A DNA stretch of 36,796 nucleotides from a virus. The stretch is taken from positions 1-36,796 of IMG/VR virus record IMGVR_UViG_3300020195_000087; one strand, 5' to 3'. Every line of letters starts with the position of its first letter. Position 1 is the first letter of the stretch. The position numbers and the translations under genes were made by a program. A model generated the notes under the pieces. The model was not told the DNA's origin. It worked only from the letters and a program-made list of their open reading frames with translations, and ran no database searches. This document shows positions 3,004 through 36,693 of this stretch, one piece after another.

Positions 3004-3957
3004 TTGAGTCAATATGGGATCCCTTACATGGGGTCAAAATCTTCTATTGCTGAAAGTGTAATATCTCTGCTTCCAAGAGAAGATAATATCTATGATTTGT
3101 TTGGGGGGGGATTCGCTATTTCTCATTGCGCGATTGCCTCCAAGAAGTGGAAAAATGTTTTCTACAATGAAATTCAAAGTGATGTCGTAGAGCTGGTCAA
3201 TAAGGCCATTAATGGCGATTACAATTATAATAAGTTTTTACCTGAATGGATAAGTAGAGAAGATTTTCATGCAAGAAAAGACAATGACGGCTATGTCAAG
3301 TGCATATGGAGCTTTGGAAATAACCAAAGATGTTACCTCTTTGGAGAAGACATAGAAGATTATAAAAGATCAATGCACAATTTTGCAGTCTTTAATATAA
3401 TTGACAAGACTGTGGCAGGGCACCTGGGCATAAGCAAGCCGATGAAGTTTTTGGACACTATATACAAGAGAAGGATTTTCATTAGTAGAAAAATGAAAAA
3501 ACAGCAACTAGAGCGACTACAGCAACTAGAGCGAATAGAGCGACTAGAGAAACTAGAGCAACTACAGCGACTACAGCGACTACAGCGACTAGAGAAACTA
3601 GAGCGACTAATAAAACTAGAATCAACTTCTCTCTCTTATGAAAGCGTAGATATAAAGCCTAGCTCAATTATTTACTGCGATCCTCCTTATCTAGGCACTT
3701 CGCTTTATAAACAAAGACTAGATCATAAAAAGTTTTACTCCTGGTGTGAGGTACAGGATAAGCCTTTATTTATTTCAGAATATAACCTAGACATAAAAGG
3801 TTTTAAAATTGTAGGCCGCTTCGAGAAGATATCTAAGCTTAATAATAGCAAGGCCGTTAAAACAATAATGATTGAAAAAGTTTATGCTAACAAAATCGGC
3901 TGTGAAATGATTATGGACAATAGAGGCCCAAGACCGGACAAAACTACACAGGGTTAA
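3004..3957 (+). CDS. dam: D12-class N6-adenine DNA methyltransferase
   Basis: Motif I is DLFGGGF (residues 31-37) for S-adenosylmethionine binding and motif IV is DPPY (226-229), the catalytic motif of N6-adenine enzymes. The opening YGIPYMGSKS is typical of the class. I chose TTG 3004, one base after the ParB-like stop, because it puts that opening at residue 4; ATG 2956 in the same frame is the alternative and would add 16 residues overlapping the previous gene. Between the motifs, residues 167-206 are an almost pure leucine/glutamate/arginine/glutamine repeat predicted to be helical, in the region that normally recognises the target. A G8 run encodes part of motif I. Probable role: protecting phage DNA from host restriction. 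Confidence 0.85.
   Translation: MSQYGIPYMGSKSSIAESVISLLPREDNIYDLFGGGFAISHCAIASKKWKNVFYNEIQSDVVELVNKAINGDYNYNKFLPEWISREDFHARKDNDGYVKCIWSFGNNQRCYLFGEDIEDYKRSMHNFAVFNIIDKTVAGHLGISKPMKFLDTIYKRRIFISRKMKKQQLERLQQLERIERLEKLEQLQRLQRLQRLEKLERLIKLESTSLSYESVDIKPSSIIYCDPPYLGTSLYKQRLDHKKFYSWCEVQDKPLFISEYNLDIKGFKIVGRFEKISKLNNSKAVKTIMIEKVYANKIGCEMIMDNRGPRPDKTTQG
3103..3110 (+). repeat. G8 homopolymer in methyltransferase motif I
   Basis: Eight consecutive G encode the glycines of motif I. Such tracts slip easily during replication; a gain or loss of one base would truncate the enzyme after about 35 residues. Confidence 0.9.
3505..3621 (+). repeat. 9/18-base repeat encoding Leu-Glu/Gln-Arg helix
   Basis: Tandem words such as GACTAGAGC and GACTACAGC encode units of the type RLxxLE for about 39 residues. 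All length changes by whole units keep the frame. The protein segment is predicted to be a long amphipathic helix or coiled coil. Confidence 0.85.
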
Positions 3958-28280: not shown

Positions 28281-28459
28281 TAACTATTTAAAATATATTC
28301 TATAGTTTCCCAAGCTAAATCTTTATTAAAATTATCTTCTTTATGACCATGAGCAAATTGCTCATATTCAATTAAGGCATTTATTTGGTCAATGGGATCT
28401 TCCCATGGTATATCTCTTTCTTCTAATAATATTTTTCGTTTAATATTATAATTTTCCAT
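28280..28459 (-). CDS. hypothetical protein, 59 residues
   Basis: Last gene of the leftward operon. The start ATG 28457-28459 follows AAAAAAGG with good spacing and lies 14 bases inside the previous gene. The sequence is acidic and helical (ERDIPWEDPIDQINALIEYEQ, NKDLAWETIEYILN). Not recognised. Being coupled to an antitoxin-like gene makes a partner role conceivable, but nothing else supports it. Confidence 0.6.
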   Translation of the reverse strand: MENYNIKRKILLEERDIPWEDPIDQINALIEYEQFAHGHKEDNFNKDLAWETIEYILNS

Positions 28460-28691
28460 CGGTAACCTTTTTTAATACTTCTTTAATTTCTGAGTTTCTT
28501 AAAATATCAATAGGCTTGCCGCCCACAGATGCGCAGTATTCATTCAGCCATCTTATGGTTGTCTCTTGACCCCAACCCATATTATCTCGGGCGATATCTA
28601 TAATTATTTTGATCTTATTATTTATCTCGCAATCACATTTAGAAAGACCTTCTTCGCAAGCTGGGCACGTGATTGAATTATTTTTAATCAT
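28446..28691 (-). CDS. MbcA/ParS/Xre-type antitoxin-like protein with cysteine cluster
   Basis: An 81-residue protein starting in the TAATG overlap with the last array gene. Four cysteines at residues 9-21 (CPAC, CDC) could bind zinc. Residues 37-81 (MGWGQETTIRWLNEY, GGKPIDIL, VLKKVTDG) match the toxin-binding domain of MbcA/ParS/Xre (DUF2384) antitoxins: WLN, then G-K-P-ID-L, then a last helix. No RES-type toxin is nearby, so it is either a solitary antitoxin or a domain reused for another role. Confidence 0.6.
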   Translation of the reverse strand: MIKNNSITCPACEEGLSKCDCEINNKIKIIIDIARDNMGWGQETTIRWLNEYCASVGGKPIDILRNSEIKEVLKKVTDGKL

Positions 28692-28900
28692 TATTTAACC
28701 CTGCTTTCAAACCTTGATTCTGACCATGACCGTGACCGTGACCGTGACCATGACCGTGAAACTGACCATGACCGTGACCATGACCATGTCCGTGACCCTG
28801 ACCATGACCGTGACCATGACCATGACCATGACCCTGAACGTGACCGTGACCATGACCGTGACCGTGGTAAATAATTAGCTCGGAACATTACTGCATTCAT
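28691..28900 (-). CDS. Ser-Arg/Ser-Trp repeat protein, unit A
   Basis: A 69-residue protein. The N terminus [12 protein letters not shown] and C terminus RFESRVK are conserved among five tandem genes; the middle 50 residues alternate serine with Arg, Trp or Gly. The start overlaps the stop of unit B (TAATG) and the stop overlaps the start of the antitoxin-like gene (TAATG). Strongly basic and aromatic; probably disordered. Confidence 0.65.
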   Translation of the reverse strand: MNAVMFRANYLPRSRSWSRSRSGSWSWSWSRSWSGSRTWSWSRSWSVSRSWSRSRSRSWSESRFESRVK

Positions 28901-29097
28901 TATTTAACCCTACTTTCAAACCTTAACCCTGACCATGACCTCGACCCTGACCGTGACCATGACCATGACCATGACCCTGAACGTGACCCTGACCGTGAAA
29001 CTGACCATGACCGTGACCATGACCGTGACCGTGACCGTGACCATGACCGTGACCATGATTGGGGTAAATAAGTAGCTCGCAATATTACAGCATTCAT
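28900..29097 (-). CDS. Ser-Arg/Ser-Trp repeat protein, unit B
   Basis: A 65-residue protein: [14 protein letters not shown], about 43 residues of alternating Ser with Arg, Trp, Gly or Val, then GLRFESRVK. The open frame extends upstream to 29163, but ATG 29095-29097 matches the paralogues and lies in a TAATG overlap with unit C. It is the closest relative of unit A in both ends. Confidence 0.65.
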
Positions 29098-29216
29098 TAT
29101 TTCACCTGACTTCCAAATCTTGACCGTGACCCTGACCGTGACCATGATTGTGATCTTGACCATCCTTTTAGCCCTGGCACAATTAAATAATTAGCTCGCA
29201 ATATTGCTGCGTTCAT
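29097..29216 (-). CDS. Ser-Arg/Ser-Trp repeat protein, unit C (short)
   Basis: A 39-residue protein, the shortest of the family: MNAAILRANYLIVPGLKGW, then about eight Ser-X dipeptides and FGSQVK. It shares its N terminus and upstream DNA with unit D through the 112-base exact repeat and looks like a deleted copy. Start overlaps unit D (ATGA), stop overlaps unit B (TAATG). Confidence 0.6.
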   Translation of the reverse strand: MNAAILRANYLIVPGLKGWSRSQSWSRSGSRSRFGSQVK

Positions 29217-29271
29217 TGTTTCGCCCTGCTTTCAAATCTTAACCCTGATCTTGACCTCGACCATGAACATG
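29160..29271. repeat. 112-base perfect direct repeat, copy 1
   Basis: Identical, by reading base for base, to 29363-29474 (offset 203). It covers the N-terminal part of one mini-gene, the coupled junction and the C-terminal part of the next, so exchange between the copies would add or delete exactly one gene. Confidence 0.9.
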
Positions 29272-29419
29272 ACCCTGACACTGCCCCTGAACCTGACCAT
29301 GATTGTGATCTTGACCATGACCATGATTGTGATCTTAACCATGACCATGATTGTGATCTTGGCCATCCTTTTAGCCCTGGCACAATTAAATAATTAGCTC
29401 GCAATATTGCTGCGTTCAT
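29213..29419 (-). CDS. Ser-Arg/Ser-Trp repeat protein, unit D
   Basis: A 68-residue protein: MNAAILRANYLIVPGLKGW, then Ser-Gln/Trp/Arg repeats less regular than in A and B, ending GLRFESRAKQ. In the C-terminal codons TAATG has changed to CAATGA, so the stop is now the TGA inside the next ATGA, two bases later, and coupling is kept. The N-terminal 19 residues equal those of unit C. Confidence 0.65.
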   Translation of the reverse strand: MNAAILRANYLIVPGLKGWPRSQSWSWLRSQSWSWSRSQSWSGSGAVSGSCSWSRSRSGLRFESRAKQ

Positions 29420-29474
29420 TGTTTCGCCCTGCTTTCAAATCTTAACCCTGATCTTGACCTCGACCATGAACATG
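29363..29474. repeat. 112-base perfect direct repeat, copy 2
   Basis: Second copy of the repeat at 29160-29271. The surrounding hexanucleotide tracts have diverged, which places the duplication after the array arose but before its latest slippage. Confidence 0.9.
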
Positions 29475-29580
29475 GCCATGACCCTGATTCTGATCGTGAC
29501 CATGACCGTGCCCGTAACCATGTCCGTGATCGTGACCATGATCGGGGTAAATAAGTAGCTCGCAACATTACTGCATTCAT
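29416..29580 (-). CDS. Ser-Arg/Ser-Trp repeat protein, unit E
   Basis: A 54-residue protein and the first in the array: MNAVMLRATYLPRS, a more degenerate repeat (Arg, Trp, Leu, Ala, Pro and Cys interrupt the serines) and GLRFESRAKQ. It starts in TAATG with the 109-residue protein and ends in ATGA with unit D. The larger number of substitutions suggests an older copy. Confidence 0.6.
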   Translation of the reverse strand: MNAVMLRATYLPRSWSRSRTWLRARSWSRSESGSWPCSWSRSRSGLRFESRAKQ

Positions 29581-34608: not shown

Positions 34609-36693
34609 ATGTTCGAGTTCTACGCGCCTAAGTATATAGAAAATTCTTACTTTGTCATCCCCTTAAATGGAAAATTTCCAATTTTACCCGAGTGGCAAAT
34701 ACCCAAAGATTTAAACACTTACGAAAATATTTACTCTACGCACCAAGGATGTAACATCGGGTTACTAACCGGAGTGCATAATGGAATAGTGGCATTAGAC
34801 ATTGATTCTGATAGCAGCGTTTCATTGTGCCCAGAGTCTCCCGTGGTTAAGAAGGGCGCTAGGGGTGAAACTAGATTTTTCAAATACAACGGCGAGATAA
34901 CCTGTAAAAATGCTGAATTAAAATTAGACCTTTTATCGACCGGAGCGCAGACGGTTTTACCGCCATCAATCCACCCAGTTATTAATAAACCGTATATATG
35001 GACAAGAGGGTCACTTCTAGAAATAGACAAAGAAGATTTACCGATTATTCCGGTTGAATTTTTAGCAACATTTTTTAATGGATCTTCTAAACTTTCAAGC
35101 GGTAGGCACGACACTCTCTTGAGTATTTGTTTTGCAAAAATATCAAGAGGAGATGGCTTTAATGAAACCGTCGATGAGATCTTACGGTACGACCAAGAGG
35201 CCCACCATGGGCATAAAGACGGCCAATACTTTTTAGATAACTCAGAAGGGCATAAAGGCAAAGGACGATCAGCGGCCGAAAATATGGTGAGGTCATGCAC
35301 TAAGACGGTCTCGCAAAAAGAAGTCAAGCATACCCAGCGTATAGAAATAAAATTAAATCAATTGAAAGATAATCCGGTTTCAAAGGTCGTTGTAGAAATG
35401 CCTGCGCCTCATGGCATTATTAAAGATGTCTATGATTACGTATTGTCTATATCAAACAAGCCTAGGCCGAAGTTCGCCATGGCCTCGGCACTGGCCTTCG
35501 TTGGAACTATCTTGTCCAATCGGGTTAAGCTGAATAAAACCACTCCGAATCTTTATCAGATTTTAATTACCGATTCAGGTCAAGGTAAGGATGTCCCCTT
35601 AAAGACGCCAAAGAATATCTTCCTGGAATGCGGTATGCAAAGACTAGTAGGTCTAGAGCATTACAGGTCGGATAAACTTTTTGTCTATGACCTCCCCGAA
35701 CAAAGAGAAAGGCTAGACACGGTCGATGAGATATCAAAGTTGTTTAAAACGCTTAAGAGTCATTCTTCTTTTAGTTCAAATATCGCCGAGATGATTACCG
35801 AGGTATGGGGATCTTCAATAGGGTATTTCAAGGGGTTCAAAGTAGGGGGAGAAAGTATAGGCGCTTGCTTCAACCCATGTGTTTCAATCCTTTCTGCCAC
35901 CACTCCAAGCTCTTTTCAACAGCATTTTACGGTAGACCAAATCATGCAAGGCTTTGGCGCGAGGTTTCTTTATATTTTCGACGATGAATCGGTAGACATA
36001 AGAAGGGCCAAAGAAATACCTATACCGCAGTCGATCAAAGATTTCTGTAAGTTTTGGAATGACGTACCGAAAGACAAGGAGATTTATCCGGCCACGGACC
36101 TAGGTCTTTTCAAAATCGACCTAAAAGAAAAATGCAAGACTCCCATCACAGAGATAGACCGCCCACTACCGCAAGAATGTGTCGTTACAGAGCAAGCGGA
36201 TAAGCTAATGCTAGAATGTATGCACCACTACGATAGAAGGGGCAGAGACAAGAATAACGGCGTTTTAAACCCCATATTACAAAGGTGCGCACAGCAAATA
36301 GATAAAATCTCGATTATAAGCGCTGTAGCAAGAAGACCTGACTCGAAGACTCCATTAATTGACGCGAAAGATGTTGAGTTCGCCAAAGGTTATGTCGACA
36401 TGTGTCTAGAAATGACTACTGTCTTTTTGGCCGAGCATCTGCCACAATCGAAGTTTCATGGAGATGTTACTAAGGTTTTTAATATCATCAAGGATGCAGG
36501 TCCAGATGGTGTTACGAGGTCTAATCTGTCTAATATCGCTTCAAGTCGCTTTGGGATTAACCGCGATCAGCTATATAACAAAGACAGGGGCATCATCGCC
36601 CAGCTATTAGAGCAAGAGAGCATTGCCAGCTTAAGGAAAGAGGGCAAAACAAAGCCGACGGAAATATACGTCGCTTTAAAATCTCCAAATTAG
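34609..36693 (+). CDS. PrimPol-DUF3987 primase/helicase-like replication protein
   Basis: A 694-residue protein. Residues 1-155 form an archaeo-eukaryotic primase (PrimPol) domain: ALDIDSD (D64, D66) and STGAQTVLPPSIHP with His122. Residues about 285-570 fit DUF3987, a helicase-like ATPase: PNLYQILITDSGQGKD carries a degenerate P-loop near 322-327. The last 82 residues are the winged-helix-like domain duplicated at 265-636. Such fusions start and unwind phage replication forks. A good ribosome site (AGGAG) precedes ATG 34609. It faces away from the leftward operon across 150 bases. Confidence 0.85.
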   Translation: MFEFYAPKYIENSYFVIPLNGKFPILPEWQIPKDLNTYENIYSTHQGCNIGLLTGVHNGIVALDIDSDSSVSLCPESPVVKKGARGETRFFKYNGEITCKNAELKLDLLSTGAQTVLPPSIHPVINKPYIWTRGSLLEIDKEDLPIIPVEFLATFFNGSSKLSSGRHDTLLSICFAKISRGDGFNETVDEILRYDQEAHHGHKDGQYFLDNSEGHKGKGRSAAENMVRSCTKTVSQKEVKHTQRIEIKLNQLKDNPVSKVVVEMPAPHGIIKDVYDYVLSISNKPRPKFAMASALAFVGTILSNRVKLNKTTPNLYQILITDSGQGKDVPLKTPKNIFLECGMQRLVGLEHYRSDKLFVYDLPEQRERLDTVDEISKLFKTLKSHSSFSSNIAEMITEVWGSSIGYFKGFKVGGESIGACFNPCVSILSATTPSSFQQHFTVDQIMQGFGARFLYIFDDESVDIRRAKEIPIPQSIKDFCKFWNDVPKDKEIYPATDLGLFKIDLKEKCKTPITEIDRPLPQECVVTEQADKLMLECMHHYDRRGRDKNNGVLNPILQRCAQQIDKISIISAVARRPDSKTPLIDAKDVEFAKGYVDMCLEMTTVFLAEHLPQSKFHGDVTKVFNIIKDAGPDGVTRSNLSNIASSRFGINRDQLYNKDRGIIAQLLEQESIASLRKEGKTKPTEIYVALKSPN

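Follow-up and report, generated by a model that had tools for sequence, protein, structure and literature searches.

Background

The nearest published case to the genes described here is found in the Borg extrachromosomal elements, which encode Sm ribonucleoproteins with amino-acid tandem repeats (PMC9879509, section 2.4.1); 5 of 19 proteins carry the repeat, rich in Lys, Glu and Gln, as a fusion to the Sm N-terminus (PMC9879509). The phage locus analyzed here is similar in that a mobile element joins an Sm-fold protein (a predicted one, in the phage) to a fast-evolving disordered region encoded by tandem repeats. It differs in that the phage array is a separate, overlapping gene with no fusion, encodes Ser alternating with Arg, Trp or Gly, is nearly obligate, is often multiplied in tandem, and undergoes codon swapping. 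A fused Sm-array ORF (a "Rosetta stone" protein) was sought among 138 matches to the phage Sm-like protein, and none was found.

Among eukaryotic proteins, Sm B, D1 and D3 and Lsm4 possess Arg-Gly tails, and the SR and RGG proteins are Arg-rich; these proteins are involved in RNP assembly and condensates. The feature shared with the phage pair is the association of an Sm fold with Arg-rich low-complexity chains, but the phage chain shows no detectable homology to the eukaryotic ones, is a separate polypeptide, has Trp in one third of its variable positions and keeps a strict alternation with Ser. Hfq and the archaeal SmAP proteins resemble the phage partner in the predicted five-stranded Sm barrel, in the invariant Gly of strand 2 and, for part of one subfamily, possibly in an Sm2-like Arg-Gly; unlike them, the partner matches neither the LSM nor the Hfq family of Pfam, and the ring and the RNA binding are putative for the phage protein, for which monomer models were built.

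Diversity-generating retroelements and contingency repeats also involve fast-changing repeats or variable coding DNA. A search of the window record for reverse transcriptase (PF00078) found nothing, and adenine-specific variation is not seen, the variable base being G, T or C, or else G, T or A, depending on the array; retroelement diversification is rejected on both grounds. A contingency locus is rejected because the phage unit of 6 nucleotides, in contrast to the repeats of such loci, cannot switch a frame on or off, and the frame is kept in relatives.

Organization of the mini-gene array

The window, that is, the whole stretch of DNA analyzed here, is an entire IMG/VR virus record of 36,796 bases, the completeness of which as a genome is not established; a terminase-like gene, a major head protein and a tape measure identify a tailed phage. 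An earlier note, made from the sequence alone, described five tandem minus-strand ORFs with common ends between positions 28691 and 29580, chained by TAATG or ATGA overlaps and built on a hexanucleotide repeat. The ORFs are confirmed exactly, with the lengths given in Table 1 and with common heads and tails, as are the six junctions within the array and with its two neighboring genes; the repeat is a degenerate GGTCAN hexamer for which Tandem Repeats Finder reports hexamer, dodecamer and 18-mer periodicity. The same program finds a 203-nt period with 94% matches across units 2 and 3, which are a recent duplication. A leftward gene block, which also contains AAA_24, DUF669 and a helicase, ends with the array. 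The coupled gene downstream is not conserved with the module and matches Pfam Rv2175c_C with 20.3 bits, below the cut-off of 26.4.

Table 1. Coordinates of the Sm-like gene, the five mini-genes and the downstream gene in the window
Feature	Position	Strand	Basis or remark
Sm-like partner gene, subfamily A, 109 aa	29580..29909	-	AF2, VIA-align, Foldseek; homologues beside arrays
Mini-gene unit 1, 54 aa	29416..29580	-	TAATG start overlaps partner stop
Mini-gene unit 2, 68 aa	29213..29419	-	ATGA overlap with unit 1
Mini-gene unit 3, 39 aa	29097..29216	-	Recent duplicate of unit 2 with shorter array; ATGA overlap
Mini-gene unit 4, 65 aa	28900..29097	-	TAATG overlap; mechanical ORF list has earlier start, 29163
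Mini-gene unit 5, 69 aa	28691..28900	-	TAATG overlap
Coupled gene downstream, 81 aa, outside the conserved module	28446..28691	-	Rv2175c_C, sub-threshold only

The tails of units 1 to 5 read RFESRAKQ, RFESRAKQ, RFGSQVK, RFESRVK and RFESRVK, respectively. The DNA of the conserved tail RFESR[VA]K also encodes a Shine-Dalgarno (SD)-like purine tract that serves the following unit (GAAAGCAGGG...ATG), and the tail is conserved partly for this reason.

Other repeats and duplicated segments are present in the same record. On the plus strand, a nonanucleotide repeat (3503-3609, the QLERLERLQRLEKLE stretch) within a D12-class adenine methyltransferase gene is a second in-frame coding repeat of this phage, and an 18-bp repeat (1156-1296) encodes the AQVYGE repeats of a YdcK-type beta-solenoid protein. 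At 265-636 and 34609-36693, also on the plus strand, the C-terminal part of a primase-like (Prim-Pol) protein and a small ORF located at opposite ends of the record contain an evidently homologous domain (HGDVTKVFNIIKDAGPDG...KTKPTEIYV), which suggests that the genome is circular or permuted, or that a duplication has occurred.

A predicted Sm-like partner protein

The gene immediately upstream of unit 1 (Table 1) was modeled with AlphaFold2 from an alignment of 52 partners (pLDDT 91.0). In the VIA-align comparison of this model, all 50 matches listed are Sm, Lsm or SmAP proteins (best Z 9.5 over 65 residues, rmsd 1.9), and nearly all matches listed by Foldseek are chains of the same three groups (best E 6e-3). 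Subfamily B, about 20% identical to the window protein, yields a similar result (pLDDT 92.7; best Z 10.7, all 50 VIA-align matches listed being Sm or Lsm). The monomer models of both subfamilies consist of an N-terminal helix followed by a five-stranded bent barrel, the Sm fold, so that the 109-aa protein of the window is predicted to adopt the Sm/Lsm fold. The invariant Gly of the Sm1 motif is present (G44, the only invariant column in alignment A1 of 52 sequences). Under a loose pattern, the Sm2 Arg-Gly is found in 26 of 64 subfamily A proteins, the window protein having SLG at this position, and it is absent from the subfamily B sequences read.

Curated profiles do not recover this relationship. 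At E 0.1, 52 partner members match no LSM or Hfq family of Pfam; PF01423 at E 1 detects nothing in the window, although the same profile is positive in 10 of 14 control genomes; a partner profile searched against the sequences of solved structures yields only insignificant matches; and Pfam, PHROGs and PADLOC give no confident family, PADLOC returning a single weak match. Because the LSM profiles fail, the partner is, as judged from its predicted structure, a distant, undescribed family of the Sm fold.

Linkage of the two genes

Searches of viral contigs with single sequences (the window partner, unit 1 and TerL) identify no relatives because the window phage is isolated. Relatives were first reached by a search for the repeat pattern rather than with protein queries: scans of viral contigs with the hexamer, its sixth base left free, and with the other TCN serine codons give more than 119 and more than 120 stretches, respectively. 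Most of these encode a short head followed by (Ser-[Arg/Trp/Gly])n and a short tail, and of the three mostly open frames it is always the same one that is used. The hexamer pattern is also matched by unrelated low-complexity genes (GS linkers, RT/RS repeats and GH repeats, as in loci L030, L033, L036, L100 and L014), and unrelated loci of the scan (e.g., L014 and L100) were excluded by a filter on the R/W/G mixture. The same frame, head type and neighbor recur in hundreds of unrelated phage contigs; the array of the window is far beyond chance.

Clustering of the genes flanking the first 84 array loci identifies a homologue of the 109-aa gene in 61, mostly immediately upstream and on the same strand, and no other conserved neighbor. 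Linkage was then assessed without bias in viral contigs, the partner profile being the only query and the array remaining unused. For subfamily A, a mini-gene is located directly downstream in 75 of 79 loci; the remaining four are a short degenerate version (MNAAVTRAGFDNPRSRSWSY), a contig truncated within the head, and a pair of identical sequences that lack a mini-gene. A protein search with subfamily B finds the array in 75 of 80 loci, the other five comprising three contigs that end inside the array or head, a stub (MTRGLKQKYRSGS) and a degenerate array below threshold. Conversely, an Sm-like gene is encoded within 3.5 kb of 200 of the 213 array ORFs with enough upstream sequence, and 13 array ORFs have no recognizable Sm-like gene nearby. 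The mini-genes thus belong, as the second component, to a two-gene phage module that is almost obligate and present in hundreds of IMG/VR contigs.

In loci L191 and L219, tandem (Ser-[RWG])n genes with the head MIKKSIYK[KR]NI occur without a recognizable Sm-like gene; a different gene upstream of these arrays (MKNTKQKEESYKIVPFSDM...) may represent an alternative partner. Many contigs start or stop inside an array (L005/L016, L044/L045, L252, L260, L270, L314 and others). The repeat probably breaks short-read assemblies, leaving the module under-sampled.

In genome collections, all seven loci with the partner also carry the array, one of them only a short degenerate one. These records, which are metagenome bins with tentative host labels, are assigned to Phycisphaeraceae, Isosphaeraceae, Dehalococcoidales, Bathyarchaeota, Deltaproteobacteria, Methylococcaceae and Ilumatobacter. 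On a 649-kb contig, the Isosphaeraceae copy is separated by about 12 kb from a terminase and by about 3 kb from a gene for the anti-restriction protein ArdC, and the region is therefore prophage-like. No match to the partner was detected in plasmids. The pair is also encoded in two deposited phage genomes, MW202573.1, where the genes are annotated as hypothetical proteins, and MW202825.1, where no annotated feature covers the Sm-like gene.

Codon usage, composition and turnover

The peptides (about 70 residues, charge about +10) consist of Ser alternating with Arg, Trp or Gly, with 40% Ser and 15% Gly overall. A codon survey covered 192 alternating stretches from 141 loci. Within an array, essentially all Ser residues share a single codon (median share 1.00), and so do the Arg residues, with either AGG or CGG; these two both occur at least twice in only 7 of the 192 stretches. 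Fst-like partitioning among arrays reaches 0.95 and 0.93 for the Ser and Arg codons, respectively, against 0.06 for the choice of R, W or G; the ratio R:W:G is 0.34:0.31:0.35 with multinomial scatter only, and the order is near random. Depending on the phage, the hexamer is GGTCAN, GGTCGN, GGTCTN or GGAGCN, all encoding the same amino acids, and AGC and TCN cannot be interconverted by one change. In a tree built from 103 partners, with many unresolved forks, there are at least 35 changes of codon type and at least 7 switches between the TCN and AGY boxes. TC-serine patterns had seeded part of the search, and a stretch was surveyed only if R, W and G each occurred in it two or more times; the partner-anchored sets, for which no array served as a seed, give the same picture of codons and residues, with TCG, AGC, TCA and TCT as dominant Ser codons.

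A neutral model of unit duplication and deletion yields equal heterogeneity at silent and residue-changing positions. The observed values are 0.03 and 0.63, respectively, and simulations of neutral turnover never produce uniform codons with mixed residues; point mutations inside units show no clear bias to silent sites. The residue mix is thus maintained while silent variants are homogenized, and therefore selection acts at the amino-acid level on composition. The selected product is almost certainly a peptide defined by its composition rather than a DNA or RNA motif. We strongly infer that what is selected is strict Ser alternation with an even R/W/G mix after a short head, not the residue order or the nucleic-acid repeat, and that the hexamer repeat is a means of rebuilding and resizing the genes without loss of frame.

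Relatives with partner genes 93-96% identical at the nucleotide level differ wholly in array order and length but keep the head, the tail and the codon type. The number of units, a comparison that the earlier note proposed, varies from 1 to 14 across related phages, and multi-unit arrays, mostly chained by overlaps, recur (14 units in L132, 8 in L174, 7 in L291 and 6 in L145). Frame-breaking changes, which according to that note would speak against translated genes, and losses are rare in relatives (the stub in L357 and the sequence without array in L286/L293). Its reading of the array as translated, selected genes and not simple-sequence DNA is strongly supported, given that the Ser-[RWG] pattern, the frame, the head and the overlap recur despite the codon changes. 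In L299 and L300, an in-frame insertion (HTFLSPLWGVANFG) interrupts the array, the frame still being open.

An ATGA overlap links the partner stop to the unit start in 78 of 109 pairs of subfamily A and in 23 of 57 of subfamily B. In A, 60 of 109 units are preceded by SD-like 4-mers, versus 19 in shuffles; in B, the signal is weak (16 versus 11). The heads also differ between the subfamilies: MNAAxLRxGFD-like heads are found in 52 of 109 cases in A and none of 57 in B, and Lys plus Arg make up 30% of the head residues in B versus 11% in A. This covariation is as predicted if the head docks to the partner, and common descent of the pair would give the same. Among 119 neighboring genes, the recognizable ones are mainly helicases, single-strand annealing proteins (Sak4, RecT and Rad52), recombination exonucleases and polymerases; because of this context, the pair is probably expressed early in infection.

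Candidate functions

The binding of nucleic acids by the Arg/Trp-rich disordered peptides, already raised in the earlier note, is plausible, and gains weight because the partner, which had gone unnoticed there, has a predicted Sm/Lsm fold. In the model that we favor, at somewhat less than even confidence, an almost obligate operon encodes an Sm-fold protein and peptides selected for composition, and the two would form a ring with nucleic-acid-binding or condensing chains supplied in trans. The Sm-like protein would assemble into the ring; the head of each peptide, which differs systematically between Sm subfamilies, would dock to it; and the Arg/Trp-rich disordered chain would serve as a multivalent tail, possibly comparable in role, by analogy, to the RG or low-complexity tails that are fused to Sm and Lsm proteins in eukaryotes. 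The pair would be made early, beside replication and recombination genes, and tandem units would raise the peptide dosage. The spacing of nucleotides in an extended single strand is approximately the distance between residues two positions apart, and it can be speculated that the variable residues, which are spaced in this way, are matched to single-stranded nucleic acid. A broader and still more tentative proposal is that of a widespread phage system in which the Sm-like ring and separate, order-independent Ser-[Arg/Trp/Gly] polymers would form a phage-specific RNP or DNA condensate early in infection; selection would see only composition and alternation, hence the repeated rebuilding by whole-array codon replacement.

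Among functional alternatives, the strongest is a cationic peptide directed at the host: the mini-genes would encode membrane-targeting or host-targeting Arg/Trp-rich toxins or inhibitors acting in takeover, superinfection exclusion or counter-defence, and the Sm-like protein would control their mRNA or sequester them. Short cationic Arg/Trp peptides can be membrane-active, the dosage ranges from 1 to 14 units, and the ArdC gene lies close to the pair in the prophage-like region; however, amphipathicity is diluted by the Ser and Gly content, the neighbors belong mainly to replication and recombination, and the partner has only the one weak match among PADLOC defence families. This explanation appears unlikely, albeit less so than those that follow.

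The earlier note also proposed a locus for making peptide variants. The fast turnover that this implies is observed, in that array order and length differ wholly even between close relatives and residue order is near random. What does not fit a deliberate variation of R/W/G order is that three residue classes dominate in a constant ratio of about 1:1:1, with multinomial scatter only, which makes the variants chemically near-equivalent; that targeted mutagenesis of the first Arg codon base would mix AGG and CGG, which are mutually exclusive within an array; and that the window lacks a reverse transcriptase. A dedicated diversity-generating locus is accordingly rather improbable, and the diversity of the peptides seems to be a side effect of repeat turnover that is tolerated, not its purpose.

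It is quite improbable that the repeat acts as nucleic acid, with coding incidental, be it as DNA (an origin, a recombination hotspot, a packaging or iteron-like site) or as mRNA (GGUCAN sites for the Sm-like protein, autoregulation, a sponge). The fixation of five of six hexamer positions does resemble iterated binding sites, and the adjacent gene has a predicted RNA-binding fold, but the hexamer changes between phages while the amino acids stay constant, and the choice among the three mostly open frames never varies, the one in use having a conserved head and a start that is coupled; a DNA iteron or RNA binding array is rejected by these codon swaps. A neutral or selfish simple repeat that is open by chance, with which fast turnover and the lack of a clear silent bias among point mutations would agree, is hardly credible and is rejected by the unbiased linkage and the turnover simulation, given the near-total presence of arrays in two unbiased sets, the constant R:W:G mix against homogenized silent codons, the conserved head and coupling, and the rarity of the frame breaks and losses that it predicts to be frequent.

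Implications

The four window mini-proteins scanned, out of five, have no family in PHROGs or Pfam, and word searches of the open-access literature on the peptide motif and on phage Sm-like proteins found nothing about this system, so that the Sm-like protein/peptide pair seems to be undescribed. Standard assembly and gene calling probably under-report it because arrays often sit at contig ends. The module is common in environmental phages. It constitutes a natural experiment on low-complexity proteins, with hundreds of independently rebuilt polymers in which composition and alternation are kept, order is not, and the silent codons act as an internal neutral control. Phages would have evolved RNPs of the Sm-plus-Arg-rich-tail type in trans, provided that the partner is an RNA-binding ring.
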